A DNA stretch of 38,202 nt. Source: Pseudomonadota bacterium (GTDB taxonomy: Bacteria > Pseudomonadota > Gammaproteobacteria > JAKAQQ01). Every line of letters starts with the position of its first letter. Positions within the stretch are counted from its first letter, which is position 1. A program made the translations under genes and the position numbers. Shown one piece after another: positions 34 through 21,367 of this stretch. Location of the stretch: contig JAJZYM010000017.1 in NCBI GenBank assembly GCA_021798115.1, positions 1-38,202 of the forward strand, written 5' to 3'. The notes beneath the pieces were generated by a model, which saw only the letters and a list, made by a program, of their open reading frames with translations, searched no databases and was not told where the DNA came from.

Positions 34-78
34 GTCGCAAGCAGGAGACCCGATAGATGTAGAATTCACGATCAAGAG

Positions 79-107
79 TTGAAGACAGAACCGTTACCGT
101 GTTTAAT
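79..107 (+). promoter_or_regulatory. Candidate sigma70 promoter of the MerT-like gene
   Basis: TTGAAG at 79-84 (four of six matches to TTGACA) is followed by a 17-base spacer and TTTAAT at 102-107 (five of six to TATAAT). This would start transcription near 114, giving a leader of about 43 bases with a strong AGGAGG at 142-147. No operator was recognised. Confidence 0.5.
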
Positions 108-156
108 CAACTCAGCAGGGTCGTCCACTTAGCAGCCTCAGAGGAGGGTTATGCCG

Positions 157-708: not shown

Positions 709-812
709 GCCATCGCGTGCTCGGCAGCTTGGCGATTGTCACGGGGGATGCGAACTTCACCCTCATGCCGACTGGCGATCGGTGCCGTACAGACGACTGC
801 TGATGACGCGCA

Positions 813-1559: not shown

Positions 1560-1568
1560 AGGCTCGCC

Positions 1569-2287: not shown

Positions 2288-2298
2288 ATACGCTCTCC

Positions 2299-3472: not shown

Positions 3473-3513
3473 TTGAGTCACCACAGAGTCACCAAATTCA
3501 CGGGAAATCGGTA

Positions 3514-3537
3514 GTGTACGGACTTATGTGCAAATTC
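3514..3537 (+). repeat. Left terminal inverted repeat of the IS256 element
   Basis: GTGT at 3514-3517 and GTGCAAATTC at 3528-3537 match the reverse complement of the right end. The ten bases in between are poorly conserved. Confidence 0.7.
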
Positions 3538-3608
3538 TTGGACTGTTGAAGCGGTCATGGTATGAGGGAGATTAGATCAACCCCGTGTCCTACAGGAGGG
3601 ACTATACC

Positions 3609-4806: not shown

Positions 4807-4831
4807 TGAAAACCTCCCTCATGCCCCAAAG

Positions 4832-4855
4832 GAATTTGCACAACTTGACAGACAC
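4832..4855 (-). repeat. Right terminal inverted repeat of the IS256 element
   Basis: Read on the minus strand, the sequence begins GTGTCTGTCAAG and continues GTGCAAATTC, matching the left end at both the tip and the inner ten bases. It lies 25 bases beyond the transposase stop. Confidence 0.75.
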
Positions 4856-5281
4856 AACCCCGGACCGCCTCCCTCACCGGGGGAGTGTCAAGGTTTCCGA
4901 TCTTATGACGAAGGCGGCGGTTCGTGACTGTCGAGGGCGGTTTTCGCCCCCCGTCTTGCGCATCGGGTCGCGATAACCCGCGATAACCTTTGTCAGGGTG
5001 AGAGCGGGCCGAAAATCTTGCCGGCGACGTTCTTCGACGCCATACCGGGCCACCCGTTCGTCAGGGAACCTTTGAGGCGCTCGTCAGCGCCTCAAGGCCT
5101 TGTCATTCTTCGCCCACCCACAGGGTCCTGTACGAGCGTGTATCCCTCCCTTGCCGCCGTCAAAGAGATCGGGTCAGGACTATCCAAACGTCGCCCTGGT
5201 GATCCCCCCTCGAATTGAAAGCGCGCGGGAAACGGGTACGCACCGAGCCCCACCGCCGCATCCGGTGAGAGCTCCCTGAGA
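4856..5281. other. Intergenic stretch without a supported gene
   Basis: These 426 bases separate the IS256 end from the permease stop. A short open frame at 5018-5218 has no recognisable features. The stretch holds a GCGATAAC near-tandem repeat (about 4965-4986) and a strong hairpin at 5072-5095. Nothing else was recognised. Confidence 0.6.
5072..5095. repeat. Perfect 10-bp hairpin, 4-base loop
   Basis: TTGAGGCGCT at 5072-5081 pairs exactly with 5086-5095 across a CGTC loop. It lies about 190 bases past the permease stop on the minus strand. There is no clear T-run on either side, so it is at most a weak terminator. Confidence 0.5.
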
Positions 5282-6721
5282 TCAAGATCCGCCCGTCGAT
5301 CCTCCGGCCGCTTCGGCGAGCGTGCTCCTTCTCCGTCCGTAACCGAGATAGAGGACGAAACCCACGATCATCCAGACGACGAAGAGAAGATCGGTGAGCG
5401 GCGGAAGACCGGCGATCAGGGCGAGCGAAAAAAGGATCCCGACGGCGGGAAGGTAGGGGACGAGCGGCGTGCGGAAACTCCGCGGCAGCTCGGGCTGACG
5501 CCGACGAAGGACAACGACCGCCGAGCAGACGACGATGAAGACGACAAGCATGCCGATGTTGACGAGCCGGGCGACGGCCGTGATCGGGAAGAGTCCGGCC
5601 ACCACGGCAATGAGGCCTCCGAGGAGAACCGTGGCGTGCTGCGGCGTTCCGCGCCGGGGATGCACGCCCGCAAACCACCCAGGAAGGAAGCCGTCGCGGG
5701 CCAGTGCGAAGGCGATGCGGGCGGCGGCCAGAAGGAAGGCGAAGAGCACACTCGTGATCCCGGCGATCGCGGCCACGGCGACCACCACCATCGCCCAGTG
5801 CACGCCGATCTCGCCGAAGGCGTTGGCGACCGGCGCGTTGTTGTTGAGGAGCCCGTAGGGCACCATCCCGGTGAGGACGAGGCACATGGCGATGTAGAGG
5901 ACCATCGAGATGGCCAGCGAGAGGACGACCGCACGCGGGAGGTCGCGTTGCGGGTCGCGCGCCTCCTCGGCGGCCGTCGTGAGTGTGTCGTAGCCGAAGA
6001 CCGCAAAGAACACGACCGCCGCTCCGGCGAGCACCCCCGAGAAGCCGAAGGGCATGAAGGGATGCCAGTGCGCCGGATGCACGTAGAACGCCCCGACGAC
6101 GATCACGAGGAGGACCCCGAGAACCTTGATCGCCACCACCGTGCTGTTGAAACGCGCGCCCCACTCGGTGCGGAGGCTCAGGAGCGCGGTGATGAGAAGG
6201 GCGACCGCGGCCGCGATCACGTCGAAGCGATGCCCCGGTGCGCTCCCCCAGGCCCCCTGCGCCCAGAGCGGAAGGTGCACCCCCGCCGTGGTGAGGAGCG
6301 CCCGCACGTACCCCGACCAACCGCCGGCCACGACCGCGACGATGAGGGCGTAGGCGAGAAGGAGATCCCAGCCGATGAGCCACGCCGGGAGTTCCCCGAG
6401 GACCGCGTAGCTGTACGTGTAGGCGCTCCCGCTCACCGGGATGAGCCCCGAGAACTCGGCGTAACAGAGAGCCGAGGCGCCGCTCGCGATCCCGGCGATG
6501 ACGAAGGAGAGCGCCACCGCCGGCCCGGCCATGGTGGCGGCGACGTGCCCGGTGAGGACGAAGATCCCGACGCCGATGATGCCCCCGATGCCGATCGCGG
6601 TGAGATGCCCGAGCCCGAGGACACGGCGCAGACCTCCGCGGTCCCCGACTTCGCGGAGAAGTTCGGCGACGGGCTTGCGGCGGAAAAGGCTGGAGGTGGG
6701 TCCTCGCCGGGGGTGGGTCAT
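5282..6721 (-). CDS. APC-superfamily amino-acid permease
   Basis: The 479-residue protein has about twelve membrane helices. Helix 1 carries the APC signature GIGGIIGVGIFVLTG (about residues 44-58), the unwound substrate-binding stretch. The conserved segments SFVIAGIASGASALCYAEF (helix 2) and VFFAVFGYDTLTTAAEEARDPQRDLPRA (helix 6 and following loop) are typical of the cationic amino acid transporter/YfnA group. It is predicted to bring amino acids across the inner membrane by proton coupling; the substrate cannot be told. The start ATG at 6721 faces the Sel1-P4H gene divergently across 117 bases. No partner enzymes lie beside it. Confidence 0.85.
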   Translation of the reverse strand: MTHPRRGPTSSLFRRKPVAELLREVGDRGGLRRVLGLGHLTAIGIGGIIGVGIFVLTGHVAATMAGPAVALSFVIAGIASGASALCYAEFSGLIPVSGSAYTYSYAVLGELPAWLIGWDLLLAYALIVAVVAGGWSGYVRALLTTAGVHLPLWAQGAWGSAPGHRFDVIAAAVALLITALLSLRTEWGARFNSTVVAIKVLGVLLVIVVGAFYVHPAHWHPFMPFGFSGVLAGAAVVFFAVFGYDTLTTAAEEARDPQRDLPRAVVLSLAISMVLYIAMCLVLTGMVPYGLLNNNAPVANAFGEIGVHWAMVVVAVAAIAGITSVLFAFLLAAARIAFALARDGFLPGWFAGVHPRRGTPQHATVLLGGLIAVVAGLFPITAVARLVNIGMLVVFIVVCSAVVVLRRRQPELPRSFRTPLVPYLPAVGILFSLALIAGLPPLTDLLFVVWMIVGFVLYLGYGRRRSTLAEAAGGSTGGS

Positions 6722-6838
6722 GGGATCGTCTCGGACAAACGGGGGCCGACCCCCTCTTGCGGAATCTTACACAAGTCGCGCGCGCCGCGAGGCACCCCCT
6801 GTGGCATCATGCGGAGGACTCCGTAACCGCCTCCCGCC

Positions 6839-8332
6839 GTGCCCGCCTCCGATTCCCCTCAGGAACAGAAACGCGAGAACGCCCTCGCCACCCTCCGGCA
6901 GAGTCGGTACGCCGAGCCCGCGTTCGCCGAGGCGCTCGGCTCCCTTCGCGCCCTGGCCGAAGAAGGCGACGCCCTCGCCGCCCTTCATGTGGCCGACCTC
7001 CACGCCCAGATCGTGGCTCTCCCCGACCGCTGGCGGGAGGCCGCCCGCTACTACGCGCTGGCCGCCCGGGGCGGACACCCGGCGGCGCGCGACCGGCTCG
7101 GGGACCTCCACCTTCTCGGGCTCGGAGTGGAGCGCTCCGCCCGTCGCGCCCTCGAGTGCTGGCTCGAGACCGCCCGGAGCGGCTACCCCATCGGTTTCGG
7201 CCATCTCGCCTACGCCTTCGAATACGGTCTCGGGACCCCTCCCGACCCGCTGGCCGCGGACCGGGCGCTCCTCTGGGCCGCGGCCTTTGCCTCCCCCTAC
7301 GGCTTCCTCCGCCTCGGTTGGCGCTGGGCGGGGCACGGCGGGAGCCTGACCCGCCCCGATCTCGCCTGGGCCTGCGCGCGGGTTGCCGCCGACTTCCGTT
7401 ATCCGCACGGGACCACACTCCTCGAAGAGATCGACGGCACGATCGAGGACGACGCGCGGCAGCGGGGAGAGAGCGCCTACCGCCTCCTGGCCGGATACGC
7501 CACGGATCTCGAACGGGCCGTCGCCGAACTCGAGCGGCGGGATCCCGCTCTTCTCGCGGACGGCGGGCGTTTCCACAGCTGGATCGCCGAGCGTTTCGCG
7601 CCCGTCGGGCACACGCTCGGGCTTCGTCTCGAACCCGTCTCTCTTCCGCCCGTCGGCAGCGGAGGCGGTTCGTGGGAACTCGAGGAGCGGGCGGCCCTCG
7701 ATCTCCCTCCCGTCCGTCTCCTCGATCCCGAGGGGCTCGTCGCCGAAACCCCCACCTTTGCGTCTCTTCCCGACTGCGCGCACGTGATGGAACTCGTCTA
7801 CCACGAACTTCGGCCGAGCGGTGCGCTCGTGGGCGAACTCGGTGAGGAGAGCTCGCACGAACACGAGAGTTTCGACGGCTTCTCGGCGCTTCTCGATTTC
7901 ACCCGCGCCGACGTCGTCGTCCACGGCCTGCGCGCACGCCTGCGCGCGCTCCTCGATGTTCCGGAAGAGCGCATCGAGCCGTTCTCCGTCCTCCGCTATC
8001 TCCCCGGGAACCGCTACCGTCCGCACGTCGACGCCCTCGACGAGACCAGGCTCGCTGAAGCCCGCCGCCGCGGCGATCACGGCGGCCAGCGCCTCCTCAC
8101 GTTCCTCGTCACGCTCTCCGCCGCCCGCCGGGGGGGCGAGACCCTCTACCCGCGCCTGGGGCTCACGGTTCCGGGGCGGACCCAGGGGGCGGTCTGGCAC
8201 CGCAACGCGGACGCTCAGGGTCGCCGCGACGAACGTCTCCTCCACGAAGGCCGGCCGATCCTCGAGGGCGAGAAGTGGCTGCTGCGAACCTCCATCCGCG
8301 CGCGGGCCCTCTCTTCGGGCGCGGAGGGGTAG
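6839..8332 (+). CDS. Sel1-repeat protein fused to a 2-oxoglutarate/Fe(II) prolyl-4-hydroxylase domain
   Basis: The protein has 497 residues. Residues 20-160 are helical Sel1-like repeats (YYALAARGGHPAARDRLGDL, ALECWLETARSGYPIGFGHL), which bind protein partners. Residues 340-490 form a P4Hc-type dioxygenase domain: RIEPFSVLRYLPGNRYRPH with iron ligands His396 and Asp398, then RLLTFLVTLS and GGETLYPRLGL, and LLHEGRPILEGEKW with the third ligand His469 and the 2-oxoglutarate-binding Lys479. All catalytic residues are therefore present. No signal peptide is seen, so a cytosolic protein hydroxylase is likely. The predicted start is GTG at 6839 with a weak ribosome site; GGAGG lies more than 20 bases upstream. 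It stands alone, divergent from the permease. Confidence 0.8.
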   Translation: MPASDSPQEQKRENALATLRQSRYAEPAFAEALGSLRALAEEGDALAALHVADLHAQIVALPDRWREAARYYALAARGGHPAARDRLGDLHLLGLGVERSARRALECWLETARSGYPIGFGHLAYAFEYGLGTPPDPLAADRALLWAAAFASPYGFLRLGWRWAGHGGSLTRPDLAWACARVAADFRYPHGTTLLEEIDGTIEDDARQRGESAYRLLAGYATDLERAVAELERRDPALLADGGRFHSWIAERFAPVGHTLGLRLEPVSLPPVGSGGGSWELEERAALDLPPVRLLDPEGLVAETPTFASLPDCAHVMELVYHELRPSGALVGELGEESSHEHESFDGFSALLDFTRADVVVHGLRARLRALLDVPEERIEPFSVLRYLPGNRYRPHVDALDETRLAEARRRGDHGGQRLLTFLVTLSAARRGGETLYPRLGLTVPGRTQGAVWHRNADAQGRRDERLLHEGRPILEGEKWLLRTSIRARALSSGAEG

Positions 8333-8455
8333 GCCCGGCGCGGAAAGCGGCGAGGGCGTCCGCGCTTCCCCCACGACCAGGGAGTCCTCGCCCGAGCGGC
8401 GAGCGCGGGACCCGCGACGGAGCGCTCCCCACGGCCCGCCGCTTCACGAAGACCG

Positions 8456-9745
8456 TTATGTCGTCGCGGAAGCCGTTTGGGCCTCGAGCCTGCGGAACGC
8501 CCGCCAGTACCCCCAGATGTAGCTGCCTTGCAGGAGGGCGGCGATATAGAACGGAAGGACCAGGAGACCCGCGTCGAGGAAGTAGCCCCCGAGCGTCGGG
8601 CCGAGCGCTTGGGGGATGACGAAAGAAGCGGCATTCAGGCTCACGGCGAAGCCGCGCCGCTCGTCGTCCACGAGCGAGACGACGACCGCCTGTCTCGCGC
8701 CCACCGAACTTCGGTTCGCCGCCGAGCGGAGGATGTAGATCACCGCCGCGAGGGAGTACCAAGGAACGAGAGGAAGCAGAAGAAGGAGAACGAAGCCGAT
8801 GATTCTCAGGCGGACGACGGAGTTGACGAGCCCGATGCGGGCGCTCAGCCGTCCGGCGAGGAGCGAGGCCACGGCCGTGATGGCGAAGACCACCGCCATC
8901 GCCGGGGCGATCGCCGCCGGACCCACCCCAAAGCGGAGGTGGAACCAGTAGGGCATGAGCGGACCGATGAGGCCGATCGCGAAACCGTTCACGGCGTTGA
9001 GCGCCACGAGTCGCGCGAGGTGCCGGTTCTCGCGTCGGCGGCGCACGCGCGCGCGTTTCGAGTGGGGAGGCTCACGCCGCGCGCGCTCGGCCCGCTCGCG
9101 GCGGATCCGGGAGCGCGACGGCTCGTGGGTCCGGGCAAGGAGGAAGAGGTTGAAGGCGCTCCCGAGCGCGGGCACGAGGAAGAGCAGGCGGTAGCCCAGG
9201 AGGGGATCGGGAACCAGTCCGGGAAGCGCGGCGAGCAGCGCCCCCGTGCCCATGCCGAAGAAGCCCACGGCGACGTTGAGGCTGTAGACCCGTCCCCGAT
9301 CCTGCGGCGGGACGAGGAGCGCGAGCCACGCCTGTTCGGCCGGGGTGAACGGGCCGGCCGAACCGTTCGCGCCGCGTCCGAAGCTCGCGAGCACGATCGC
9401 CGGAACGAGGAGCATCGGCTCGCGGGTGAGAAAGGCGGTGAGCCCGCAAAGCACGGTGAGGATCTCGTTGCCGACGAGAAAGGGCCGCCGGCGGAGCCGG
9501 TCGCTCGCCGGCCCGACGAAGAGCGCGAGCGACCCGGCCAGGAGCCCACCGGCGGTGAGCACGCCCCCGATCATCACCCCGCTCCAGCCGAGACGCGCGA
9601 GGTAGAGGGCGAGATCGACCACCATCGCGCCCTGCCCGAAGCTGCGGGCCGCGCGCATCATGATGAGCCGCCGGGCTTCCGGCCGAAGCCGCCCGGGAGT
9701 GGAGCCGCCGTCTTCCGGTGCGGTGGGCGGCGTCTCTTCGCTCAC
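8456..9745 (-). CDS. Major facilitator superfamily transporter
   Basis: The protein has 429 residues and about twelve hydrophobic segments in two halves. They are separated by a very basic central loop ([20 protein letters not shown]). The loop after helix 2 reads [13 protein letters not shown], the typical MFS motif A (G-x-x-x-D-R-x-x-R-R). The GTG start at 9745 overlaps the stop of the urocanase homologue by four bases (GTGA), so translation is almost certainly coupled. This replaces a longer in-frame extension that would overlap the upstream gene. The substrate is unknown; the coupling suggests it handles a substrate or product of that enzyme, but this is inference. Confidence 0.85.
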
Positions 9746-11412
9746 GCCCCAAGCATCGGAAGGTCGAGCCCGAGACGGCGTGCGGTCTCGATCGCCTCCT
9801 CGTAGCCGGCGTCCGCGTGGCGCATGACGCCGGTCCCGGGATCGTTGGTGAGGGTGAGACGAAGCGCACGCTCGGCCCGCTCGGAGCCGTCGGCAACGAT
9901 GACCACCCCGGCGTGTTCGGCATACCCCATCCCGACCCCGCCCCCGTGATGCACGCTCACCCAGGAGGCGCCGCTCGCGGTGTTGAGAAGCGCATTCAGA
10001 ATCGGCCAATCGGCGACCGCATCCGAACCGTCGCGCATGGCCTCCGTCTCACGGTAGGGGGAGGCGACCGAGCCTCCGTCGAGGTGGTCGCGGCCGATCA
10101 CGATCGGGGCCTCGAGCTCGCCGCGGCGCACCATCTCGTTGAAGGCGAGCCCGAGGCGGTCGCGCTCACGGTAGCCGAGCCAGAGGATGCGCGCCGGAAG
10201 ACCCTGGAAGTGGATGCGTTGCTGGGCGAAATCGAGCCAGCGGTGCAGATGCGCATCGTCCGGGAACAGCTCGCGGGCCTTCGCGTCCGTGCGCCGGATG
10301 TCCTCGGGGTTGCCCGAGAGGGCCGCCCAGCGGAAGGGCCCGCGGCCGCGGCAGAAGAGCGGGCGCACGTAGAGGGGGACGAACCCCTGGAAATCGAAGG
10401 CGCGCTCGACGCCCGCCTCACGCGCCATGGCCCGGATGTTGTTCCCGTAATCGAACGTCGGCACCCCGGCGTCGTGAAAGGCGAGCATCGCCCGGACGTG
10501 ACGGGCGATCGAGGCGAGCGCCAGCGCGCGGTACCGGCCGGGGTCGTCGGCGCGGAGCGCGCGCGCCTGAGCGACGTCGTACCCGACCGGCACGTAACCG
10601 TAGAGCGGGTCGTGGGCCGAGGTCTGATCGGTGACGAGATCGGGTCGATACCCACCGCGGGCGATCGTCTCGAAGACTTCGGCGGCGTTGCCGAGGAGCC
10701 CGACGGTGGTCGGCCGGCCGCGGTCGGTCGCCTCGCGCATGAGCCCGAGGGCCTCGTCGAGATGGTTCGCCTCACGCTCCAGGTAGCCCGTCTCGAGACG
10801 GCGACGGATGCGTTCGGGATCGACCTCGACGGCGAGAAGACTCGTCCCGGCGGCAAGGGCCGCCAGGGGTTGGGCGCCGCCCATGCCGCCGAGCCCGCCG
10901 GTGAGGATCCACTTGCGCCCGGGATCGTCCTTCGGGTAGTGACGCCGGAGGGCCTCGGCGAAGGTCTCGTAAGTGCCCTGGACGATCCCCTGCGAGGCAA
11001 TGTAGATCCACGAGCCTGCGGTCATCTGGCCGAACATCATGAGGCCCTTGCGGTCGAGCTCGTCGAACTCTTCCCAGCTCGCCCAGCGGGCCACGAGGTT
11101 CGCGTTCGCGATGAGCACACGCGGGGCGAAGGCGTGGGTCTCGAAGACGCCGACGGGTTTTCCGGACTGAATGAGGAGCGTCTCGGTATCCCCGAGACGA
11201 CGGAGCGTGCGCACGATGGCGTCGAAACACTCCCAGTTGCGCGCGGCGCGGCCGCGTCCGCCGTAGACGACGAGCTCGCGCGGATTCTCGCCGACCTCCG
11301 GATCGAGATTGTTGTGGAGCATGCGGAGCGCGGCCTCCTGCACCCAGCCGCGGCAACTCAATTCGCGGCCGCGCGGGGCGCGGAGGGTCACGTCACGGTA
11401 GCGGGTCGTCAT
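9742..11412 (-). CDS. hutU: Urocanate hydratase homologue lacking the active-site cysteine
   Basis: The protein has 556 residues and is collinear with urocanase, which hydrates urocanate using tightly bound NAD+ in histidine breakdown. The NAD-binding [14 protein letters not shown] (171-184) is intact, as are [20 protein letters not shown] (440-459) and [10 protein letters not shown]. The family signature [10 protein letters not shown], whose Cys is the active-site residue (Cys410 in P. putida), here reads [10 protein letters not shown], so residue 410 is Leu. The codon is CTC, more than one base from TGC/TGT. No hutH, hutI or hutG is nearby. The ATG at 11412 follows GAGGAG and lies 20 bases inside purL. 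Either activity is altered or lost, or the reaction differs. Confidence 0.85.
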
Positions 11413-14400
11413 GATCGACTCTCCTCAGTGGGGAACGAATCATCGCGCCCCCCCGCCCGCCCTTCAGGTGATCACGGGCGTTACGGAAGAGCCAGAGCCA
11501 GGGGGCGTCCTCGCCCCACTGCGGGGGACGCCAGGAGTATTGGAGGGTGCGGAACGCCCGCTCGGGATGCGGCATGAGGATCAGGATACGCCCGTCCGCG
11601 TTGACCACACCCGCCGCCCCTGCGGGCGAGCCGTTCGGGTTGAGGGGGTAGCGCGTCGTCGGCACCCCCCGCGCGTCGGCGTAACGGAGGACGACCCGCG
11701 GATCGCGGGCGCCGTCCGCGTCCTTCCAGAGCGCGCGCCCCTCCCCATGCGCGACGGGGACGGGGAGAAGCGCGCCCTCGAGGCCCGCGAGCCACGGACT
11801 CTCGACCGCGGCCGGGTCCGGACGGACGGCGAGATTCACCCAGCGACTCTCGAAACGGCACGAAGCGTTGCCGACGAAGAGCGGCCATCCCCGGGCGCCC
11901 GGAACCAGCTCGTCCTCGTCCGCGCGGTTCAAGGCCGCGAGGGCTGCGAACATCTGGCAGCCGTTACAGATCCCGAGGGCGAGGGTTCCGGGATCGGCAA
12001 GAAAGCGGGCGAGCGTGCGACGAAGACGGCGGTCGCGGGCGAGGGCCAGCGCCCAGCCGCGTCCCGCGCCGAGCACATCGCCGTACGAGAAGCCCCCGCC
12101 GGCGGCCAGGACGTCCACACGGGCGAGGAGGGCCGGGCGACGATGCACTTCACTCATCGGAAGATCGACCGCCGCGAAACCCGCACGCGCAAAGGCCTCC
12201 GTGAGTTCGAGATGCCCGTTCGTCCCTTCCTCACGCAGAATGCCCACGCGCGGGCGCGGCCCACGCGCAGGCCTCGGCGCGGACCCGTCCGTCAGGGCCC
12301 GTGGCAGCCGTACGGCGAGACCCACGGCGGGAGCTTCGTGCACACCCTCGGCGTGGGCATTCACGCCGGCCGCTTCCGCCTCGCTCCGGTAGGCCTCCTC
12401 GGCGCTCTCCGGCGTGTCGCGAAGCGCCCGCATCCGCCACGAGAGGCGCGACCACGCGCGACGAAGATCGACCAGGCTCTCCTCGAGGAGAAGGCCCCCC
12501 CCGGCCTCGAGGAGACGCACGCGATCGTCCCCGCCGCTTCGGCCGAGAAGACAGGCGTAGAGGCCCGCGCGATGGGCGGCGCGAACAAGTCCGGCCGCGT
12601 CCCGCGGAGCGACCTCCACGACCGCCCCCGCCTCCTCCGCGAAGAGCTCGGCCCAGGGATCGGCCTTCCCCGGAAGAGTGATCTCGAACCCCCGCGCGGA
12701 GGCGAAGGCCATCTCGAGGAGTGTGATGACGAGCCCTCCGTCGGAGCGGTCGTGGTAAGCGCGGATCACGCCCCGGCGAGCGCCGCGACGGACGAGGGCG
12801 AAGAGGCGCGCGAGACGCTGCGGATCCTCCACGTCCGGCGGGGCTCCGAGCGAACCGAGCGTCCGCCCGGCCGTGTCCCCCTCCCCCCGGACCATCTCGA
12901 GAACCGAAGCTCCGAGTCGATGGGCGGGCCCCGGGGCGAGGAGGATGAGCGCCCCCTCCTCTTCGGGCCAGAGCGGGACGAGGGTGCGTCCGGCATCGCG
13001 GACGGGCGCGAATGCGGTCACGACCAGGCTCACGGGGGAACGCACGCACCGCTCACCCCCCGCGGGATCGTTCCAGACCGTCTCCATCGAGAGCGAATCC
13101 TTGCCCACCGGCACGGGAAGACCGAGGGCGGAGGCGAAAGCGCCGAGCGCCTCGACCGCGTGGAGAAGAGCCTGCTCCTCTTCCGGTGTCCCGCGTGCGG
13201 CCATCCAGTTGGCGGAGAGGGCCACCTCCGTGAGGGCGGGGACATCGGCCGCCGCAAGATTGAGAAGCGCCTCGGCCACCGCGAGCCGCGAGGCCGCGGC
13301 GGGGTCGAGGAGCGCGACGGGCGGCCGTTCCCCGAGGGCGAGGGCACGCCCGCGCCGTCCGCGGAGATCGTCGCACTGGACGGCGACGTCGGCCACCGCG
13401 ACCTGATGGGGACCCACCAGGGGATCACGGGCCGTCCGCCCACCCACGCTGCGGTCGGCGATGGTGACGAGAAACGACTTGTCGGCGACGGCCGGGGCAC
13501 GGAGGACGCGGCGGAGAAGATCGGGAAGTTCGGCGCGCGTGGGGAAAGCCACCTCGCGCGCCCCGCGCATCGCCGGGCGTGCCTCCGGCGCCGGGCGCGG
13601 GTCGGTGGCGGGCGGGGGAAAGAGCACATCGAGCGGGAGGTCGACGGCGCGCACGCCGGCGTGGTTGGCGAGAACGATCCGCCGCGGGTCCGTCACCGTC
13701 CCGAGGACCGCCCACGGACAACGCTCGCGGCGGGCGATCTCGGCAAGCCGCGGGAGATCGTCCTCGGCGATCGCGAGGACATAGCGCTCCTGCGCCTCGT
13801 TACACCAGAGTTCCAGCGGCGAGAGGCTCGGGTCGTCGCGGGGAATCGCGTCGCTGTCGATCTCCGCCCCACAGCCGCCGTCGGCGACGAGTTCGGTCAC
13901 GGCGTTCGCCAGTCCTCCGGCGCCCACGTCGTGGATGGCCACGATGGGGTTCGGGCCGTCGCCCCCGGCCAGGGTGTCGATGAGCTCCTGCACGCGGCGC
14001 TCCATCTCGGGGTTTCCCCGTTGCACCGAGGCGTAATCGAGATCCTCGTGCGCCTGTCCCGCCCCCTGGGACGAAAGGGCCCCGCCGCCCAGGCCGATGC
14101 GGTAGGACGGCCCCCCCAGGACGACGATCTTGAGGCCCGCACGCACCCGCCCCTTGCGGTAGGAGGCCTCGGTGACATAACCCGAGCCACCGGCGATCAT
14201 CACCGGCTTGTGGTACCCGCGGACGAGACGACCCGCGCCCTCGGGACGGGTTTCGAAGGTGCGGAAGAATCCGGCGAGGGTGGGCCGGCCGAACTCGTTG
14301 CCGTAGGCCGCCGCTCCGAGAGGGCCGCGGGTCATGATCTCGCGCGCGGAGGCAAAACGTCCGGGTGGCGGAAGGGCTCCTTCCTCCCACGGCTCACGGC

Positions 14401-15382
14401 CCTCCGGAAGATCGAGATGCGAGGTGAGGAAACCCGTGAACCCCATGCTCGGGCGGGCGCCACGGCCGGTCGCACTCTCGTCACGGATCTCTCCTCCCCC
14501 GCCCGTCGCGGCGCCCGCGAAGGGCTCGATGGCCGTCGGGTGGTTGTGGGTCTCGGCCTTGACGACGGCGTGACGCAGGATCGCCCGCGCCCGGTACACC
14601 CGCCCCGGACCCGGCGCGAAAGGCAAGCGGCCGGGGACACCGCGCAGAACGGCGGCGTTGTCGCGATAGGCGACAAGAACCGGACCGGGATGAGCGTCGT
14701 GGGTCGCCGTGATGTAGGAAAAGAGCGTCCGCACGCTCCCGTCGGGGAGGCGCCACGGGGTGCGAAAGTGTTTGTGCCGGCAGTGCTCGGAGTTGATCTG
14801 CGCGAAGGTCATGAGTTCCGCATCGGTGGGCGCCCGCGCGAGTCGCGTGTAGTGCTCCGTCAGCCACGCCCGCTCGTCGCGATCGAGGGTGAGGGCGAGA
14901 CGCGCGATGCCCTCGGCGACCGCGCGGGAGGGATCCTCGGCCGGGGCGAAGACGACGAGTCCCCCGGGGGGACGCGGGTGGAAGAGCCTCTCGAGATCTC
15001 GAGGGTCCTCGAGGATGTCCTCCGTCATGCGGTCGGTATGCGCGCGGACAAAATCCCGCCGTGCCGCAGCATCCCCGCTGCCGCCGACTTCCCAGCACCA
15101 GGCGCGTTCGAGACGATGGACGACCCCGAGGCCGACCCGCTGCGCAAGATCGGTCGCCTTCGACGACCAGGGGGAGACCGTCCCGCGGTGGGGAACGACG
15201 TAGAGCGCCGGGCGGTCGCGCCCGAGCGGCACTCTCTCGGCTCCGTCGAGGAGCCGGCGGAGCGCCTCTTCCTCCTCCGGGTCCGGAGGGCGCGCGACGA
15301 GGACCAGAAAGAGCGGCGACCGCCGGTACGGGCCTTGCGGAGGCTCCGCCGGACCGCGGTAAACCAGCAGAATCGGGGGCAT
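11393..15382 (-). CDS. purL: Phosphoribosylformylglycinamidine synthase, large single-chain form
   Basis: This is the fourth step of purine synthesis: FGAR, glutamine and ATP give FGAM. At 1329 residues it is the fused proteobacterial type. The order is an N-terminal PurS-like domain, a helical linker, and two AIRS-type ATP-binding halves ([54 protein letters not shown]). Last is a glutamine amidotransferase with nucleophile Cys1139 in [10 protein letters not shown] and partners His1272 and Glu1274 in LMPHPERAF. All key residues are present. A 23-residue C-terminal tail after FRNARDHLK extends into the start of the urocanase homologue. The ATG at 15382 has a palindrome 48 bases upstream. The unusual point is its polycistronic link to hutU and a transporter. 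Confidence 0.95.
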
Positions 15383-15429
15383 GTCAGGCGCCTCGGCGAA
15401 GGGAGGCGGCGCGAAAGCGCCTCGGGCCT

Positions 15430-15445
15430 GTCAATTGTAATTGAC
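15430..15445. promoter_or_regulatory. Operator-like palindrome upstream of purL
   Basis: GTCAATTGTAATTGAC is a perfect 7-bp inverted repeat with a 2-base centre. It is AT-rich in a very GC-rich setting, 48 bases before the purL start and 22 bases past the DLH stop. It does not resemble the E. coli PurR box. It also contains TTGACA-like and TACAAT-like sequences on the minus strand, so it could be a regulator site over a promoter. This is inference from symmetry and position. Confidence 0.4.
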
Positions 15446-15467
15446 GCGCCGCCGGAGCGGCCGGAGA

Positions 15468-16187
15468 TCAGGCGAGGGTGTTCGCGAGAAAAGACAGGAT
15501 GTCCCGCCAGGCATCCTGAGCCGCGCGGGGATGGTGACTCGGGCGCTCCTCGCAGAGAAACCCGTGCCCGGCTCCCGGGTAGACCGAGAGGAGATAGCGT
15601 TTGCCGAGCCCCGAGAGGGTCTCGGCGATGCGGGCATGCTCGGCCGGCGGGATCGAGGCATCGTCGGCACCGTAGCCGAGGAAAAGAGGAGCGGCGAGGG
15701 CCTTCGAGCGGCCGATCGGCGGCTCGCGTCCGAAGCGGTCGGGTCCCTCGGGGGCGATCCCTCCGCCGTAGAGGGCGAGGACCGCCCGCCACGCCTCGGG
15801 GCGGGCACACCCCCCGAGATACGCGAGCCGTCCGCCCATGCAGAAACCGAGGACGGCGATCCGCTCCGGATCGACCTCTTCCTGCGCGCCGAGCCACGCC
15901 CGCGCGCGGTCGAGATCCTCGAGGAGATCCCCATCGCGCAGGGTGGGAAGGAGCGCCAGGACCCGCTCGCGTTCGTCGTAACCGAGGACGGTCCCGCGGA
16001 AGAAGTCCGGGGCGAGGGCGAGATAGCCCGCCTGGGCAAGACGAAGGCAAACATTGCGGATGTGAGCGGTGATCCCGTAGGCCTCCATGAGGACCACCAC
16101 CGCGGGGACCCGACCGCCCGCCCGCGGCCGCTCGCAGTAGCCGTTGAGATCGGACCCGAGAGCAACGCTCGAGGCAGGGGTGGCCAT
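15468..16187 (-). CDS. Dienelactone hydrolase family protein
   Basis: The protein has 239 residues, normal for this alpha/beta-hydrolase family, which cleaves dienelactones and related esters or lactones in the cytosol. The Cys-His-Asp triad is visible: Cys116 in LGFCMGGR, Asp175/176 in GYGADDASIP and His208 in PGAGHGF. Glu35 in LMEAYGIT matches the conserved Glu that tunes the Cys. The region after the His (LCEERPSHHPRAAQDAW) is also typical. It lies 85 bases upstream of purL on the same strand, with the AT-rich palindrome between. Nothing suggests an aromatic-degradation pathway here, so the natural substrate is open. Confidence 0.85.
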   Translation of the reverse strand: MATPASSVALGSDLNGYCERPRAGGRVPAVVVLMEAYGITAHIRNVCLRLAQAGYLALAPDFFRGTVLGYDERERVLALLPTLRDGDLLEDLDRARAWLGAQEEVDPERIAVLGFCMGGRLAYLGGCARPEAWRAVLALYGGGIAPEGPDRFGREPPIGRSKALAAPLFLGYGADDASIPPAEHARIAETLSGLGKRYLLSVYPGAGHGFLCEERPSHHPRAAQDAWRDILSFLANTLA

Positions 16188-16259
16188 GCTCGGACTCCGG
16201 TGAGGAAAGCGCCTAGGTTACCGCAGAGGACGCGGGAGGCTCGACGAGACCGGTGCGAC

Positions 16260-16297
16260 TGTTAGCCCAAAACTGTCTCATGTCCCCTTTGTCCAAC
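16260..16297 (+). repeat. Direct repeat, left copy (38 bp)
   Basis: The run TGTTAGCCCAAAACTGTC then TCATGTCCCCTTTGTCCAAC recurs at 18066-18101 in the same orientation, with two substitutions and one 2-base gap. TGT at the outer edge suggests an insertion-sequence terminus, but its family was not identified. Confidence 0.75.
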
Positions 16298-16300
16298 GGC

Positions 16301-16388
16301 TGTATCTGTCAAGTTGCGCAAATTCCTTTCTGGTATGGGGGAAGATTTCATCAGGCCGCCGCCCGTAGCCGCTCGCGGCGCCGTTCTT
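16301..16388 (-). mobile_element. IS256-family right-end remnant, minus orientation
   Basis: Read on the minus strand it gives the transposase tail KERRRERLRAAA-stop. The stop is followed by the same trailer as the full IS256 copy and by the terminal repeat ending near 16302. About 60 bases match the inverted copy at 17971-18032 with few differences. Both share CTTTCTGGTATG, where the intact element has CTTTGGGGCATG, so the two remnants come from a sibling element. Confidence 0.75.
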
Positions 16389-16394
16389 TTGCGG

Positions 16395-16512
16395 CGGCTG
16401 ACCAGCCCGGCCGCCCCTCGCGCTGATACCGGCGCAACAGCCTGCGCACCTGCCGATCCGAAAGCGGCAACACCGCCGCGGCCTGCCGCTGACGGATCAA
16501 TCCTTGGCGGCG
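16395..16512 (-). pseudogene. Transposase N-terminal helix-turn-helix fragment
   Basis: One minus-strand frame reads IRRQGLIRQRQAAAVLPLSD then RQVRRLLRRYQREGRPGW. This pattern is typical of the N-terminal homeodomain-like HTH of ISNCY-type or related transposases (a Q-x-x-A-A-x-x-L-x-L-S-x-R-Q-V-R-R core). A stop precedes it, and it runs directly into the IS256 tail, so it is a scrap fused by rearrangement. Confidence 0.5.
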
Positions 16513-16612
16513 GATCTACAACGGAGTCCGTCCACACAGTCGGCCGGGCTACTCGCCACCCGCCTCAGCCTACTTCCTGGAACGCTTCCAGGAGCAACAA
16601 CAGGTGGTCTAA
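16505..16612 (+). pseudogene. C-terminal scrap of an integrase-core (rve) transposase
   Basis: The plus-strand frame WRRIYNGVRPHSRPGYSPPA and its tail FLERFQEQQQVV-stop match the end of IS3/IS481-type transposases, which typically finish YN-x-x-RPHSSLGY-x-PPA. Only about 35 codons remain. It overlaps the HTH scrap on the opposite strand by a few bases. Confidence 0.55.
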
Positions 16613-16690
16613 TATGGCGATAACTAAACCTCAACTTCGTCCGAAATTCCGGGGCCAGTCACGCCCGAGAGGATTGCGAAGAGATTCGTT

Positions 16691-17626
16691 ATGGCACGGT
16701 GGTTGAGATTGGGACTTGCGTTACTCTTCGAATCCATCCTATTAGGATTGTTGGGTATATGGCTGGGCAGGTGGATGACGCCCTTGCCGCGGACGGCATC
16801 ACTCGGTGTGGCGACCATTCATTGGATGCGACCGATCGTGCGGGCTCCCATAAAGACTCGGGTGCATGTACGTGCGATGCCGCGTCGGGTAGGGCGGGTA
16901 TCCCCACCTCGGATGCCTTCGCTGGCAGCATTCGAGACTCCCTCGGCTTGGGGTCGCGTCCTGCGTCTTCTGAGGAAATCGTTAAAACAGGGGAATGGGG
17001 TACACATTCCGGAAGTTCAGTCCGGAGCGGGTGGGTGGGGACATGTCGTACCGGTTCAAATCCCCATCCCCGGTGCGGGTGGGCTCTTCGCCACCGGGCT
17101 GCGCGTTATCCAAACGCATCTGTCGTGTCCACGCGTATTCGGATATATTGCGCATCTGCATCGGGAATATCAATGGATCGCCGGTCGGGTCAATACCTCA
17201 GGGCGGGTAATTTCGGTGAGGGATTTCCGCCGGGTCCGCGTAAGCAGGGCCACCGCCACTGCTTATCTAGCGTCGGTCCGAAAGTGGCGTTTCGCTCCGC
17301 TCCGGATCAATGGGCATCCAACATGGTTCCATATCGTAGCCGTCATCTGGTGGGTATCTAGTCGACCGGTAATACACTTACGCCATCCGCGCCATCCGCT
17401 CTTTCCCGGACCCCAAAGCCGTTGTTTTCGGGTTTCTTCCGATATTTACGGCGATGTCTTCTATAACAAGGTGCCCAATCGTGATCGGGTGATGCCGCAC
17501 TGGATACTGTATCCACTCAAGGGGCATCATCCGCTTGCTGTGCTCTTGGCCGCGGGTCCAGATCCAACACCGGGGATCGCCCAGGCAGTTGCTCTTTTTC
17601 TTCGGCAACTGCAAAACAAGCACTGA
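16691..17626 (+). CDS. TonB-like protein inside the IS island
   Basis: The protein has 311 residues. Residues 5-27 form one N-terminal membrane helix. A basic, moderately Pro-rich region follows, where TonB has its periplasmic spacer. Residues 160-220 read like a TonB C-terminal domain: YQWIAGRVNTSGRVISVRDF, then TAYLASVRKWRFAPLRING and a final beta strand. The core SVRKWRFAPLRINGHP matches the RxWRF-P-x-x-x-G hallmark. An unusual extension of about 90 residues follows the domain. TonB proteins pass inner-membrane proton-motive energy to outer-membrane receptors; no ExbB, ExbD or receptor lies nearby. Composition is less GC-rich than its neighbours, suggesting transfer. The start at 16691 has only a weak ribosome site. 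Confidence 0.55.
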   Translation: MARWLRLGLALLFESILLGLLGIWLGRWMTPLPRTASLGVATIHWMRPIVRAPIKTRVHVRAMPRRVGRVSPPRMPSLAAFETPSAWGRVLRLLRKSLKQGNGVHIPEVQSGAGGWGHVVPVQIPIPGAGGLFATGLRVIQTHLSCPRVFGYIAHLHREYQWIAGRVNTSGRVISVRDFRRVRVSRATATAYLASVRKWRFAPLRINGHPTWFHIVAVIWWVSSRPVIHLRHPRHPLFPGPQSRCFRVSSDIYGDVFYNKVPNRDRVMPHWILYPLKGHHPLAVLLAAGPDPTPGIAQAVALFLRQLQNKH

Positions 17627-17849
17627 GACATCGCATCGCGGGTTCAAGTGGGAAGTGCAACCGTGAGTGAAGTTCTGGTGTTGAAGCATGCCTCATCGGG
17701 GTTCGGAAGTAGGGTCTTGGACCCGGGCAGATCAGAGTCAATCATTGCGGAAACGAAGCAACAATATTGGGATGGCCATCAGTTCTCGCTTCCCTGCGCA
17801 TGCTGCCCTTACCGTGACCAATCCTGCTGGCCACACGGTTGTCACAAAA
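17627..17849. other. Unassigned sequence between TonB-like gene and IS256 tail
   Basis: No gene is supported here. Open frames are short and featureless. The sequence changes abruptly at about 17850, where IS256 homology begins (GCCGAGTCCTGC). Confidence 0.5.
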
Positions 17850-18032
17850 ATGCCGAGTCCTGCCTGCGTCTGGTGCGGGCTCTCTGTGTCGAGATCCATG
17901 AAGCCTGGCTTGAGGGCAACCGCGACCTCAACAGGAATCTCTTGGAAGAGCCGCGCCGCAAGCGCCTTCCGGCGGCGGCCTCATGAAATCCTCCCTCATA
18001 CCAGAAAGGAATTTGCACAACTTGAAAGACAC
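17850..18032 (+). mobile_element. IS256-family right-end remnant, plus orientation
   Basis: It encodes the last ~45 residues of the transposase (ESCLRLVRALCVEIHEAWLE, then RNLLEEPRRKRLPAAAS-stop at 17986), followed by the trailer and terminal repeat ending at 18032. It aligns with 4675-4855 of the intact element, with several substitutions, so it is an older or sibling copy. The transposase start is gone. Confidence 0.8.
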
Positions 18033-18065
18033 AACCACTTTTATGCAGCACTCGGGCACATTGAG

Positions 18066-18101
18066 TGTTGGCCCAAAGCTGTCATGTCCCCTTTGTCCAA
18101 C
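18066..18101 (+). repeat. Direct repeat, right copy (36 bp)
   Basis: TGTTGGCCCAAAGCTG then TCATGTCCCCTTTGTCCAAC matches 16260-16297 in the same orientation. The remaining 140 bases to the antiporter stop hold no recognised feature. Confidence 0.75.
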
Positions 18102-18242
18102 TCTGAAGGGAAGCCCGCACCCGATCACCCCTGGCGTCGTTCCCCCTCGGAAAAGCCAAACTCACCTGGCTCACCACACCTGCCTTGAGCCCCTGAACTC
18201 CTACACAAAAGGGGATCAGCTTGGGGAGAAAAGGGAGCATGT

Positions 18243-19457
18243 TTAGGATTGGGTTGACGCGAGCCCGGCGCGGCGCGCCAGGAACGGGACGAGGAGCGCG
18301 GCGAGCACGAGGGTCACGAGCACGCAGTCGGCGATGAGTGCCGCCGCCTCGCGCGCCCCGGCCACGGGGCTCGCGGCCAGAAAGGCGGCGAGGATCGCGG
18401 GGACGACCCCGGTCGGGCGCGAGGCGGCGAGAACGAGGCCTTCGCCGCGGCTCCAACGGGCGCGACGGTCGGGCAGGATCGAAAGGGCGACGGCGAGAGG
18501 ACGCGCCACGAGGACGAGGACGACGGGCACGGCGACGAGAGCGAGCGGCGGCAGCGCCAGAAACGCACGCGGGTCGAGCGACGCCCCGAGAAGAAAGAAG
18601 ACCACGACCCGCACGAGGGCGTTCGCCGCCTCGCTGAACCGTCGTCCGCCGGGCGCCGTTCCCCGCACGCCCGGACCCCGTTCGCGAAGCCCGATCCCGA
18701 GCACGAAGACCGCGATGAATCCGCTCCCCCCGGCGGCCACCCCAAGGGCGTAGGCCAGCGCGATCGCAAGGAGGACGAGCAGCGGGGCGTGGGGACGCCG
18801 CGCACCCCCTCCCCGCTCCAGGACAAGGCGTACGCCCACCCCGACGAGGAAGCCCACGACGACGCCGAGGAGCCCTTCACGAAGAAGCGCGAGCGCCAAC
18901 GGACCGAGCGGAAACCCCCGCGTCCCCCGCGCGCCCGCGAGAAGCCCAAGCCCGACGGTGACGAGCGCGAGGGACACCGCGTCGTTGAAGGCGGCCTCGC
19001 CAAGCAGAGCCGTGCGGATGCGCGGTGCGAGACGCCCCGCGCGAAGAAGCGCGGCCGTGGCGGCCGGGTCGGTGGCGGCCACCGCCGCACCGAAGAGGAG
19101 CGCGGCGGACCAGGGCAGAGCGGCGAAGAGCCGGGCGGCCAGGGCAACGACGAGGGCCGTGACCGCAACACCGAGCGTCGCGAGGAGGCCGACGCTGAGC
19201 GCCATCGGCGCCAACGCGCGTGGAGGAATGTCTTGCGTGCCTTCGAAGAGAAGAAGCGCGGCGCCGAGGACGAGGGCGTCACGCACCCAGGGTGTTGCGG
19301 CGCTGACGTGGAGGATCGCGGTGACACCGGGACCGGCGACGAAACCGAGCGCCAGGACCACGAGGAGTTCGGGAACCCAGCCGCGCGCCCCGATCTCGAG
19401 GGCCAGCCAGCCGGCGGCGAGGACGAGGGCGAGCAGGCCCATGAACGCAAGCGCCAT
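18243..19457 (-). CDS. Cation:proton antiporter, CPA1 family
   Basis: The protein has 404 residues and about twelve membrane helices. The diagnostic motifs are AAVAATDPAATAALL (CPA1 TDP motif, about residues 122-136) and EAAFNDAVSLALV (the family's E-x-x-F-N-D, with the ion-binding Asp). It should exchange Na+ or K+ for H+ across the inner membrane. There is no long cytosolic tail, so this is the short bacterial form. Its ATG at 19457 is one base past the dnaQ stop, making it the last gene of a yafS-like/rnhA/dnaQ/antiporter run. The run ends next to the IS island, so anything once following it may have been displaced. Confidence 0.85.
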   Translation of the reverse strand: MALAFMGLLALVLAAGWLALEIGARGWVPELLVVLALGFVAGPGVTAILHVSAATPWVRDALVLGAALLLFEGTQDIPPRALAPMALSVGLLATLGVAVTALVVALAARLFAALPWSAALLFGAAVAATDPAATAALLRAGRLAPRIRTALLGEAAFNDAVSLALVTVGLGLLAGARGTRGFPLGPLALALLREGLLGVVVGFLVGVGVRLVLERGGGARRPHAPLLVLLAIALAYALGVAAGGSGFIAVFVLGIGLRERGPGVRGTAPGGRRFSEAANALVRVVVFFLLGASLDPRAFLALPPLALVAVPVVLVLVARPLAVALSILPDRRARWSRGEGLVLAASRPTGVVPAILAAFLAASPVAGAREAAALIADCVLVTLVLAALLVPFLARRAGLASTQS

Positions 19458-19458
19458 T

Positions 19459-20190
19459 TCAGGGTTCCCCCTTCGTCACCTCGAGCTCTTTCAGCCAGAA
19501 GGGCGCAAGGCTCCCCGCTCGCGCGGCGATCGCACGCAACCGCTCGTGATGGGCGCGCCGCTCGGGCCCGGCGGCCCGACGGACGGGCAAGGGCAGGCTC
19601 GGACGCCGGAGCGCGGCGGGCGCCGTCTCGGCGGCCGCCTGGATCGCCTCCTCAAACCCCATGCCGACCTGGCCCGCGGTCATCCGGAGATAGACCTGGA
19701 CGAGGAGCTCGGCGTCGAGCCGCGCCCCGTGGTAACGGCGCGCGCTCAGATCGACGCCGTAGCGGCGGCAGAGAGCGTCGAGACTGTTGCTCACGCCCGG
19801 ATGAAGGCGCCGGGCCAGGCGGAGGGTGTCAACCACTTCGTGGCCGGAGGCGAGCGGCGGTGTCGCGCGGCCCGTGCGCGCGAACTCCGCGTCGAGGAAG
19901 GCGAGGTCGAACTCGGCGTTGTGGATGACGAGCTCCGCGTTCTCGAGGAAGGTGAGAAGTTCCTCGGCGATGTCCGCAAAGCGCGGTTTGCCGCGCAGGA
20001 CGTCGTCCCCGATCCCGTGGACGGCGAAGGCTCCGGGATCGACGGGACGCTCGGGATCGAGATAGGTCCAGAACACCCGCCCCGTCGGCTGGCGGTCGAC
20101 GAGCTCGAGGGCGGCGATCTCGATCACCCGGTGCCCCGCGGCGGGCTCGAGTCCGGTGGTCTCCGTATCGAGAACGAGCTCGCGGGTCAT
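19459..20190 (-). CDS. dnaQ: DNA polymerase III epsilon subunit, 3'-5' proofreading exonuclease
   Basis: The protein has 243 residues, the usual size. DEDDh exonuclease motifs are visible: Asp8 and Glu10 in VLDTETTG, Asp in [11 protein letters not shown], and the His/Asp pair in [11 protein letters not shown]. The C-terminal tail after about 190 is the less conserved part that contacts the alpha subunit. The ATG at 20190 overlaps the rnhA stop by four bases (ATGA), and no upstream start is needed. The rnhA-dnaQ neighbourhood is conserved in E. coli, where the two are divergent; here they are co-directional and overlapping. Confidence 0.95.
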
Positions 20191-20657
20191 CGCGGGGGTC
20201 CGCCGAGGGGACGGGCGGCCGCATCGCGGCAAGCGGCACGCGCGAGCGTGTCGACCCGCTCGTTTTCCGGGTCCCCGGTGTGACCGCGCACCCAGCGCCA
20301 CTGCACGTCGTGGGGCTCGAGCGCCCGGTGGAGTTCTTCCCAGAGTTCGCGGTTCCGCACCGCGCTGCCGGAGGCGGTGCGCCAACCCCGCGCCCGCCAG
20401 GTCGGGAGCCACTCGGTGATGCCCAGGCGCACGTACTCCGAATCGGTCGTCAGGACGACCCGCGCGGGGCGCCGCAGGGCCCGCAGGGCCTCAATCGCGG
20501 CCCGAAGCTCCATGCGGTTGTTGGTCGTGAGGGCCTCGCCGCCGCTGAGCTCGCGCTCGCGGTCCCCGGAGCGGAGGAGCACGGCCCACCCTCCGGGGCC
20601 GGGATTGCCCGAGCAGGCACCGTCCGTCCAGACGAGAACCTCGGGTTTCCCGTTCAC
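20187..20657 (-). CDS. rnhA: Ribonuclease HI
   Basis: The protein has 156 residues, the normal length for the enzyme that cuts RNA in RNA:DNA hybrids in the cytosol. All catalytic residues are present: Asp12 in [11 protein letters not shown], Glu50 in [13 protein letters not shown], Asp72 in LTTDSEYV, His126 in [10 protein letters not shown] and Asp136 in ERVDTLAR. The start codon is GTG at 20657, which overlaps the stop of the methyltransferase-like gene by four bases (GTGA). Its own stop overlaps dnaQ by four bases. This gives a tightly coupled chain. Confidence 0.95.
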
Positions 20658-21367
20658 GGTTGGAACCGCGATCCTTGGGGAAGCGAGCCCGAGAGACGGC
20701 GGGCGCTCCGCCCGGGGAGCAGAAGACCGGCGGGAGGCGGCGGACGACGGGCGACGACGATCCGGTCGAGAGGACGGATCCTGAGCACGGGCAGGCGTCG
20801 CGTCAAGGGCCCGTAGAGAACCGTGTCGGACTCGATCCTGAGACCCTGGGCGCGCACGAGCTTGGCGACCGGAAGAAACCGTCCGCCCCGCCGCCCGGGG
20901 GCGAGCGGATGTCGGACGACCGTCACCAATCGTCCCTGGAGAGCCAGAACGCGCACCGTCTCGACCAGCAGTGTCCGGGGATCGATGCCCTCATCCAGGA
21001 CATGGACCAGGAGAACGGCGTCGAACGACGCCGGAGGAAAGGGAAGAGGCCCCAAGGGCTCGCCGAGCCGCCAGGAGACGAGCCGCCAGCGCGTGAGCGC
21101 TCCCAGGGCGAGGGAACGGTCGTGGGGAGGGAGAACCACGAGTCCGAGATGCCCCGGGAGGCGGGTGAGGAGCGCCCTGAGAGCCTGCGCCTCGCGGCGG
21201 CGGGTCCCCGTGTCGCGGCGGGGAACTCCGCCGTCCGCACGCACATGAAACGGCCGGAGGGGCACTTCGTATCGAAGCATCCGCCGGGCCGACTCAGCAC
21301 ACGACACGACGGTCGCGCTCCCCGAGCGGGCAATCACGGTGTCCAAATCTCGCACGCACTCTCTCAT
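20654..21367 (-). CDS. YafS-like SAM methyltransferase homologue, divergent
   Basis: By position it matches E. coli yafS, a methyltransferase-family gene between gloB and rnhA. The C-terminal half fits: [20 protein letters not shown], then [20 protein letters not shown], the family's late motifs. The N-terminal half lacks a Gly-rich SAM motif I. The equivalent stretch reads [20 protein letters not shown], so cofactor binding is doubtful. The start is uncertain: ATG at 21367 gives 237 residues, the usual family size, but with a poor ribosome site; ATG at 21604 is also in frame. It is the first gene of the run and divergent from gloB. Confidence 0.6.

Follow-up and report, generated by a model that had tools for sequence, protein, structure and literature searches.

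The window analysed here is a whole contig (C2) of 38,202 bases, from a genome of 1.88 Mb that is 97% complete. Between the genes of a dienelactone hydrolase family protein and a sodium/hydrogen exchanger (hereafter the hydrolase and the antiporter) it holds an island of about 1.84 kb, whose GC content is 0.577 compared with 0.716 and 0.696 in the 10-kb flanks (Table 1). The original prediction had described an IS-bracketed island with direct repeats in which a lower-GC gene remains intact among decayed scraps, and this description was borne out. The gene, here called B, is open over 311 codons and its GC content of 0.575 lies well below that of both flanks. Since 12 other genes of the B family have GC contents of 0.56-0.68, this lower value is no sign of foreign origin, and a foreign origin on the ground of low GC was dropped.

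The direct repeats at the two ends of the island are imperfect. With the preceding three bases of each copy counted in, they agree at 36 of 39 aligned positions, with one 2-base gap, and the exact stretch is 20 bases. Allowing up to 2 mismatches, their 18-base core was found at just these two places in 1.88 Mb, and a reversed-pattern control gave 0. The left repeat is perhaps an IS-end remnant, as its sequence resembles the end of an ISNCY-like element in L012. Inside the repeats stand inverted IS256 tails, 86% complementary over 91 nt (16298-16388 and 17946-18036); the full right tail (17849-18036) has ten further places in the genome, matching over at least 138 bp at 84-91% identity. PF00872 was matched by a related full IS256 copy in the sister species and by a partial one in the window, and the tails correspond to IS256-type transposase gene ends.

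Table 1. Features of the island and its flanking genes (window coordinates), with the sites of the TTGACA and G-run pattern in other fetched sequences (sequence:position).
Feature	Position	Strand	Basis or remark
Left flanking gene, dienelactone hydrolase family	15468..16187	-	PF01738
Left copy of imperfect direct repeat	16260..16297		sequence comparison
Inverted IS256 tail (transposase gene end and terminal region), end facing left	16298..16388	-	matches right tail
ISNCY-like transposase helix-turn-helix fragment	16409..16509 (approx.)	-	one other genome place, C16:269-370
Last 103 bp of IS3-type transposase gene	16510..16612	+	much longer copy upstream of the sister species' second B
Gene B, divergent TonB-like protein (probable), 311 aa	16691..17626	+	open frame; family profile likeness
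Hypervariable part of gene B	17123..17470	+	in-frame indels; 38 of 39 differing codon columns vs orthologue (gap columns included)
IS30-type element end, ~10 bp past gene B stop	17637..17709		4 further genome places, one only 28 bp
105-bp stretch, origin not assigned	17744..17848		also in sister-species island, 94%
IS256 tail (transposase gene end and terminal region)	17849..18036	+	genome matches
Right copy of imperfect direct repeat	18066..18101		missing from sister-species island
Right flanking gene, sodium/hydrogen exchanger (antiporter)	18243..19457	-	PF00999
TTGACA + 6-15 G sites, first part	L041:280, L050:12356, L056:1531, L058:4368, L059:6630, L060:388		
TTGACA + 6-15 G sites, second part	L140:471, L141:3313, L143:3156, L144:3298, L145:3840, L146:3849		
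TTGACA + 6-15 G sites, third part	L147:5617, L148:4849, L149:5461, L150:4033, L151:496		

The rest of the island consists largely of debris from other elements. The names ISNCY, IS3 and IS30 were assigned partly by likeness to known transposase sequences; Pfam backs IS256 (PF00872) and IS3 (rve_3), and backs IS30 only via a helix-turn-helix, and the ISNCY-like ORF at the sister locus had no Pfam match. A second ORF at 17648-17986 was not accepted as a gene, being composed of the IS30 end, the 105-bp stretch and the IS256 tail, with nothing significant in Pfam or NCBIfam. To the left of the island two long ORFs of 1329 and 1553 aa overlap on opposite strands (11393-15382, minus, and 11411-16072, plus), probably an effect of high GC.

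Gene B and its likeness to TonB

The predicted B protein is made up of an N-terminal membrane helix, a linker, a TonB-like domain at about residues 139-215 and a lineage-specific C-terminal extension. In the window protein the extension runs from VMPHWILYPLKGHHPLAVLLA onward (about residues 228-311); it is common to 12 of the 14 aligned family members, and the other two, both from one genus, lack it or have it in truncated form. The linker, inspected by eye, has about 100 residues with scattered Pro and many Arg, and is less Pro-rich than in the TonBs of the lineage. On its own the window protein gave no significant family match in Pfam, NCBIfam, PHROGs or PADLOC, a Pfam match at 0.084 to a eukaryotic HU domain being taken as chance or too weak. 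An AlphaFold model from a 3-row alignment had a pLDDT of 35, the first 20 residues being the sole blocks above 70.

The TonB likeness claimed in the original prediction emerged instead at the level of the family. When the B family profile was compared with a profile of 11 lineage TonBs (11 of 26 TonB_C rows were taken for the alignment), the two matched over 73 columns with an E value of 1.5e-5 and a probability of 79.5, compared with a probability of 0.1 for the negative control, A1 against A2. Of the 14 B proteins, two matched PF03544 (TonB_C) at E<=0.1; the better of these, at 8.2e-5, fell under the family cut-off in one Pfam search and over it in the genome search. Five of the six weak matches in a PDB profile search with B were TonB chains (E 0.24-0.65). 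A hydrophobic N-terminal stretch is present in all 14 B proteins, and their membrane helix, like that of all 11 aligned lineage TonBs, contains one acidic residue, which is Glu in 23 and Asp in 2 of these 25 proteins. The genome's own ExbD-linked TonB has Glu in the helix too, as do two of four further proteins weakly matching TonB_C, the other two being without it. In receptor-linked and ExbD-linked TonBs of the lineage (L120-L131, L153, L154), the helix His is absent and Glu is found instead.

In PMC12204202, Ser-X-His-X-Leu-X-Ser in the TonB membrane helix is given as a motor-binding motif. The motif was absent here, with 0 of 14 B proteins and 0 of 11 aligned lineage TonBs having the helix His, and because His is absent in B and the local TonBs alike, this test does not separate the two.

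By likeness, B is probably a divergent TonB paralogue, not filed as a standard TonB. Similar to TonB (PF03544) and the TonB/TolA force transducers, it would combine a membrane helix and periplasmic linker with C-terminal TonB_C similarity in the family, and the acidic residue of its helix recurs in the 11 aligned lineage TonBs. It differs in having no Ser-X-His-X-Leu-X-Ser, in its C-terminal extension (12 of 14), in adjoining two other genes, A and C, rather than ExbB/ExbD or a receptor, and in a middle that is variable among the window-type copies. That the gene stands without ExbB/ExbD proved true locally but not genome-wide, as other contigs of the genome hold 3 ExbD, 3 TonB_C (1 over the family cut-off) and 5 Plug matches. 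With TonB, ExbD and receptor genes of its own elsewhere in the genome, the host has such a machine; ExbD matches were obtained in all nine family genomes searched.

Cassettes of A, B and C genes

B was matched in 8 of 56 relative genomes searched (own genome included), all 8 from the same family, which has 9 genomes in the list. The matches fall at 19 places, up to five in one genome, and full-length B was, among the genomes searched, confined to this bacterium's family. Over 369 genomes of the class the B profile matched 25, 4 of the family and 21 others; in the 21 the matches were weak (best E 7.8e-6) and lay mostly at positions 158-217, the TonB-like part. A was found in 4 of the 369, all of the same family.

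Setting aside the window copy and its orthologue, the 56-genome search left 17 B places, the loci of which were profile-searched. A lay within 3 kb at 13 of them, C at 12, and either or both at 15; two of the 17 have C without A. One of the two places with neither is about 400 bases from a contig end, with neither gene on its other side, and the second is a fragment adjoining an A fragment. One genus has the arrangement A-B-C and another A-C-B, and the link seen between A and B is one of gene order. Neither A nor C adjoins the window B or its orthologue, and profile searches found no A or C gene in the 38-kb window. The genome has only one B; its contig C5 carries an A-C pair, at which no B was found and which is followed by transposase remnants. 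Fourteen of the 19 B places were aligned, five fragments being left out, and 16 of 26 A match rows; further B fragments outside the 17 are L058:152-286 and two contig-end pieces of G004.

A, which has two invariant cysteines and a variable C-terminus, is probably a secreted protein, to judge by its signal-peptide-like start, and C, with its lipobox-like start, is probably a small lipoprotein. Searches of Pfam, PHROGs and PADLOC with the A and C proteins gave nothing significant; a Pfam match of one A to Fea1 (0.031) and matches of one C to DUF4156 and YbjQ (0.13-0.2) were dismissed as chance or too weak. The PDB profile search returned nothing for A and weak matches only, from E 0.065, for C, and a single-sequence AlphaFold model of A had a pLDDT of 37. 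In the literature on multigene, orphan, mobile and phase-variable TonB, nothing on the B family appeared among the matches listed (in one search, the best 10 of 551).

Upstream of A, the hexamer TTGACA is invariant in 19 of 19 aligned upstream regions, that of the C5 pair among them, and a run of 6-15 G comes after it at 17 of the 21 A genes. This pattern, framed after the alignment was seen, matched 17 times in the 392 kb of sequence fetched; every match lay 54-99 bp ahead of an A gene, with 0 elsewhere, and shuffled sequence gave 0.3. From TTGACA to the next TA there are 15-21 bases in 12 of the 17, these being the 12 with a clear TA. The length of the G run differs between loci, and the density of single-base runs of at least 8 is raised 4.5-fold around A, B and C (19 in 53 kb, compared with 27 in the other 339 kb, p 3e-6).

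Phase-variable promoters whose -35 and -10 elements are separated by a G run are known, for example at meningococcal porA. The A genes are alike in placing their G run directly after TTGACA, the layout of a slippage-switched promoter, which suggests that their promoters are phase-variable; with a -35-like TTGACA and a G run at most A genes, slippage should switch each cassette on and off. They differ from the porA type in standing upstream of a multi-copy cassette in uncultured bacteria and in being absent at the window copy. In the A-C pair of the genome itself (C5, L048:15020-16398) the G run is gone and the TTGACA, contributed by an IS256 end, is spaced 17 bases from TAAGCT, an arrangement that perhaps locks this pair on. 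For the window B, no promoter-like site was found on the plus strand between 16180 and 18300 (a weak test, shuffles giving 0.9 by chance on both strands), so the gene may not be expressed.

The sister species and a second site of B

A sister species in the same genus is represented by a MAG (YF3.bin4, G001), which aligns collinearly to the window over 4853-18036 at 98.5% and over 18097-21160 at 99.4%. It carries the same island at the same site, minus the right direct repeat and surrounding DNA (about 60 bp). About 16 kb away and inverted, it has a second B copy in the order A, IS3-type element, IS30, B and another IS30 end, so that the B unit has two sites in G001 and one in the genome studied here. 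The IS3-type element of the second locus is near-complete and seems whole in length, with its frames broken. In the window the IS3 tail runs straight into the B unit, whereas at the second locus IS30 sits in that junction.

The common IS3-tail/B junction indicates that both loci derive from one IS3-B arrangement, of which the window keeps the form that preceded IS30. These junctions are present in both species, and from the loci around them we infer the direction of the move and its agent: the second locus, having A and far more of the IS3-type element, would be the source, and the window site derived from it. Because the derived site is common to both species the move predates their split, and IS activity probably relocated B before then. 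The earlier idea of a movable gene was thus right in that B has moved, the sister species holding the same unit at two sites. It was not supported in making B the cargo of a movable element, as only transposase tails flank it and the same island occupies the same site in the one same-genus genome with that site assembled. Searches of plasmids, phages and IMG/VR (the last for close relatives) found no relative.

No empty hydrolase-antiporter site was obtained among the relatives searched. In the other same-genus genome (G002) the antiporter match covers residues 1-137 only and the hydrolase was not found, and in other genera the two matches lie on different contigs at 31-36% identity, or one is missing. 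Each genome of the family is spread over at least 30 contigs, and mixed strains could be concealed in the sister MAG. The place of the sister's A-IS-B locus is taken in the window (1-4859) by a methyltransferase gene at 813-1559, a fragment of an integrase carrying Arm-DNA-bind_3 at 2591-3484 and, at 3510-4859, an IS256 whose frame is split.

Variation in B and the explanations considered

The original prediction also suggested that the intact gene may be under selection, and here the direct evidence is mixed. Between species of the sister genus (62-66% identity) the dN/dS of B was 0.38, 0.37 and 0.29 in three pairs, and B genes across these species are under purifying selection. Among the window copy, its orthologue and the second copy of the sister species it was 1.5-2.5 in the same analysis and 1.3-2.5 with another alignment, which gives no sign of purifying selection on the window copy. 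The window copy and its orthologue are identical over the first 142 codons, and 38 of their 39 differing columns (gaps included) fall within columns 145-267, that is 123 of 318 (binomial p ~5e-15, for a region picked after the data were seen). Columns 143-256 hold 27.5 nonsynonymous and 2.5 synonymous differences (one-sided Fisher p 0.008, rounded counts); the same test gave p 0.10 and 0.05 for the two other pairs. The second copy of the sister differs from the window copy in 44 columns, of which only 28 are in the variable region. The frame contains no stop, and the indels among the three copies in the DNA alignment, read by eye, are multiples of 3 in 4 of 4 cases. We read this as rapid change in parts of the periplasmic domain under a frame that is maintained. 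The change may reflect diversifying selection, on three related copies only and with the alignment in variable stretches uncertain.

A diversity-generating retroelement was considered for this variation and dropped, since the variable stretches contain indels. A run of 10 G in the variable part of the sister's orthologous-site B (L051:5270-5279) may mark a place of slippage, or else be an artefact of assembly. Mosaics were observed elsewhere in the family: from the last part of B through C and beyond, contigs C25 and C9 of G005 are alike at 96% for 945 bp, with a mid-B match of 46 bp only, and the A genes of G005 C3 and C12 are alike at 96% for 853 bp and then diverge at the C-terminus. At L146/L147, L041/L055 and L140/L022, A and B likewise show near-identical blocks beside unrelated ones, above all at the A C-terminus.

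Taken together, these findings make it likely that the window B is a stranded TonB paralogue of the A-B-C cassette family, moved by IS elements and now working in trans or silent. Rather than a traveller that arrived with the IS elements, it is probably a piece of a resident family pulled out of place by them; the spot singled out earlier is real and unusual, and its direction was read wrongly. According to the mechanism we propose, a cassette would comprise a secreted A, a TonB-like B and a lipoprotein C, some genomes holding several diverging cassettes, each switched on and off by G-run slippage upstream of A. In the ancestor of the genus an IS3-type element would have inserted between A and B, and a segment consisting of the IS3 end, B and the IS30 end would then have been copied by IS activity to a site between the hydrolase and antiporter genes. 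The B helix would engage an ExbB/ExbD-type motor via its conserved acidic residue, while the periplasmic domain would pull on an outer-membrane partner, probably one linked to A or C. The window B would serve the A-C pair of C5 in trans or, no promoter-like site having been found on its strand, may be silent.

It is possible, rather than probable, that B is instead a neutral relic, which lost its promoter and partners on relocation and drifts, its frame intact merely through the recency of the move. The negative promoter search on its strand, the dN/dS above 1 among the window-type copies and the decay of the surrounding debris all fit such a history, but the frame does not fit it well: there is no stop and there are only in-frame indels, whereas 63, 78 and 86% of simulated copies gained a stop at 30, 45 and 60 random substitutions. 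A plain relic should also change evenly along its length, and the confinement of the changes, near complete against the orthologue and partial against the second copy, counts against it.

Gene conversion from silent donor cassettes is known from antigenic variation systems, and promoterless B copies might likewise store variant middles that are copied into an expressed B. Conserved B ends around a variable middle and the mosaic A and B paralogues elsewhere (G005 C25 and C9) would suit such a role. We nevertheless think it unlikely, as no two copies were seen to share segments in the manner of donor and recipient, the genome has one B only, and conversion from a distant paralogue would not be expected to leave so few synonymous differences in the variable part (2.5 versus 27.5 nonsynonymous).

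B might also be no TonB-like protein at all but a partner of A, of immunity or chaperone type, within a polymorphic secreted system; the conserved front and variable C-terminus of A, the variable middle of B and the failure of the window protein to match Pfam significantly are compatible with this. The resemblance to TonB_C would then have to be due to chance, which the profile match to lineage TonBs, the Pfam TonB_C matches in 2 of 14 members and the membrane-helix residue common to 14 B proteins and 11 aligned TonBs render improbable.

A composite IS transposon carrying a selected TonB-like cargo between genomes is disfavoured as very unlikely: the island resembles IS256 composite transposons in its inverted IS256 ends around a gene, and it has direct repeats and two copies in the sister species, but only tails of 91-188 bp remain with no functional transposase flanking, the repeats are 39 bp, imperfect and unlike a target duplication of normal length (the sister island has a possible 5-base CCAAC only), several other IS families are mixed in, the site is the same in two species, none was found in plasmids, phages or viral contigs (close relatives), and B is a chromosomal family gene that usually adjoins A or C.

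The window B differs from a phase-variable A-B-C cassette in standing without A, C and a G-run promoter. More tentatively, with doubts that outweigh our confidence, we suggest that the A-B-C cassettes form a phase-variable system, so far undescribed, for the cell surface or for secretion; its dedicated TonB paralogue, with loops that diversify, would power a secreted, C-terminally variable partner. Cassettes would diversify by recombination and IS activity, a stranded B being debris or a reservoir. As a mobile TonB, the gene would be a curiosity; the wider B family is the more interesting object. As a stranded piece from a multi-copy cassette family with a TonB paralogue and G-run promoters, it directs attention to contingency loci of uncultured bacteria, which pressure from phages or predators could be driving in place of a host immune system. 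A further addition is a candidate TonB paralogue that may have a secreted protein as its partner, in a lineage where the motor-binding helix His is an acidic residue even in receptor-linked TonBs (11 of 11 aligned).
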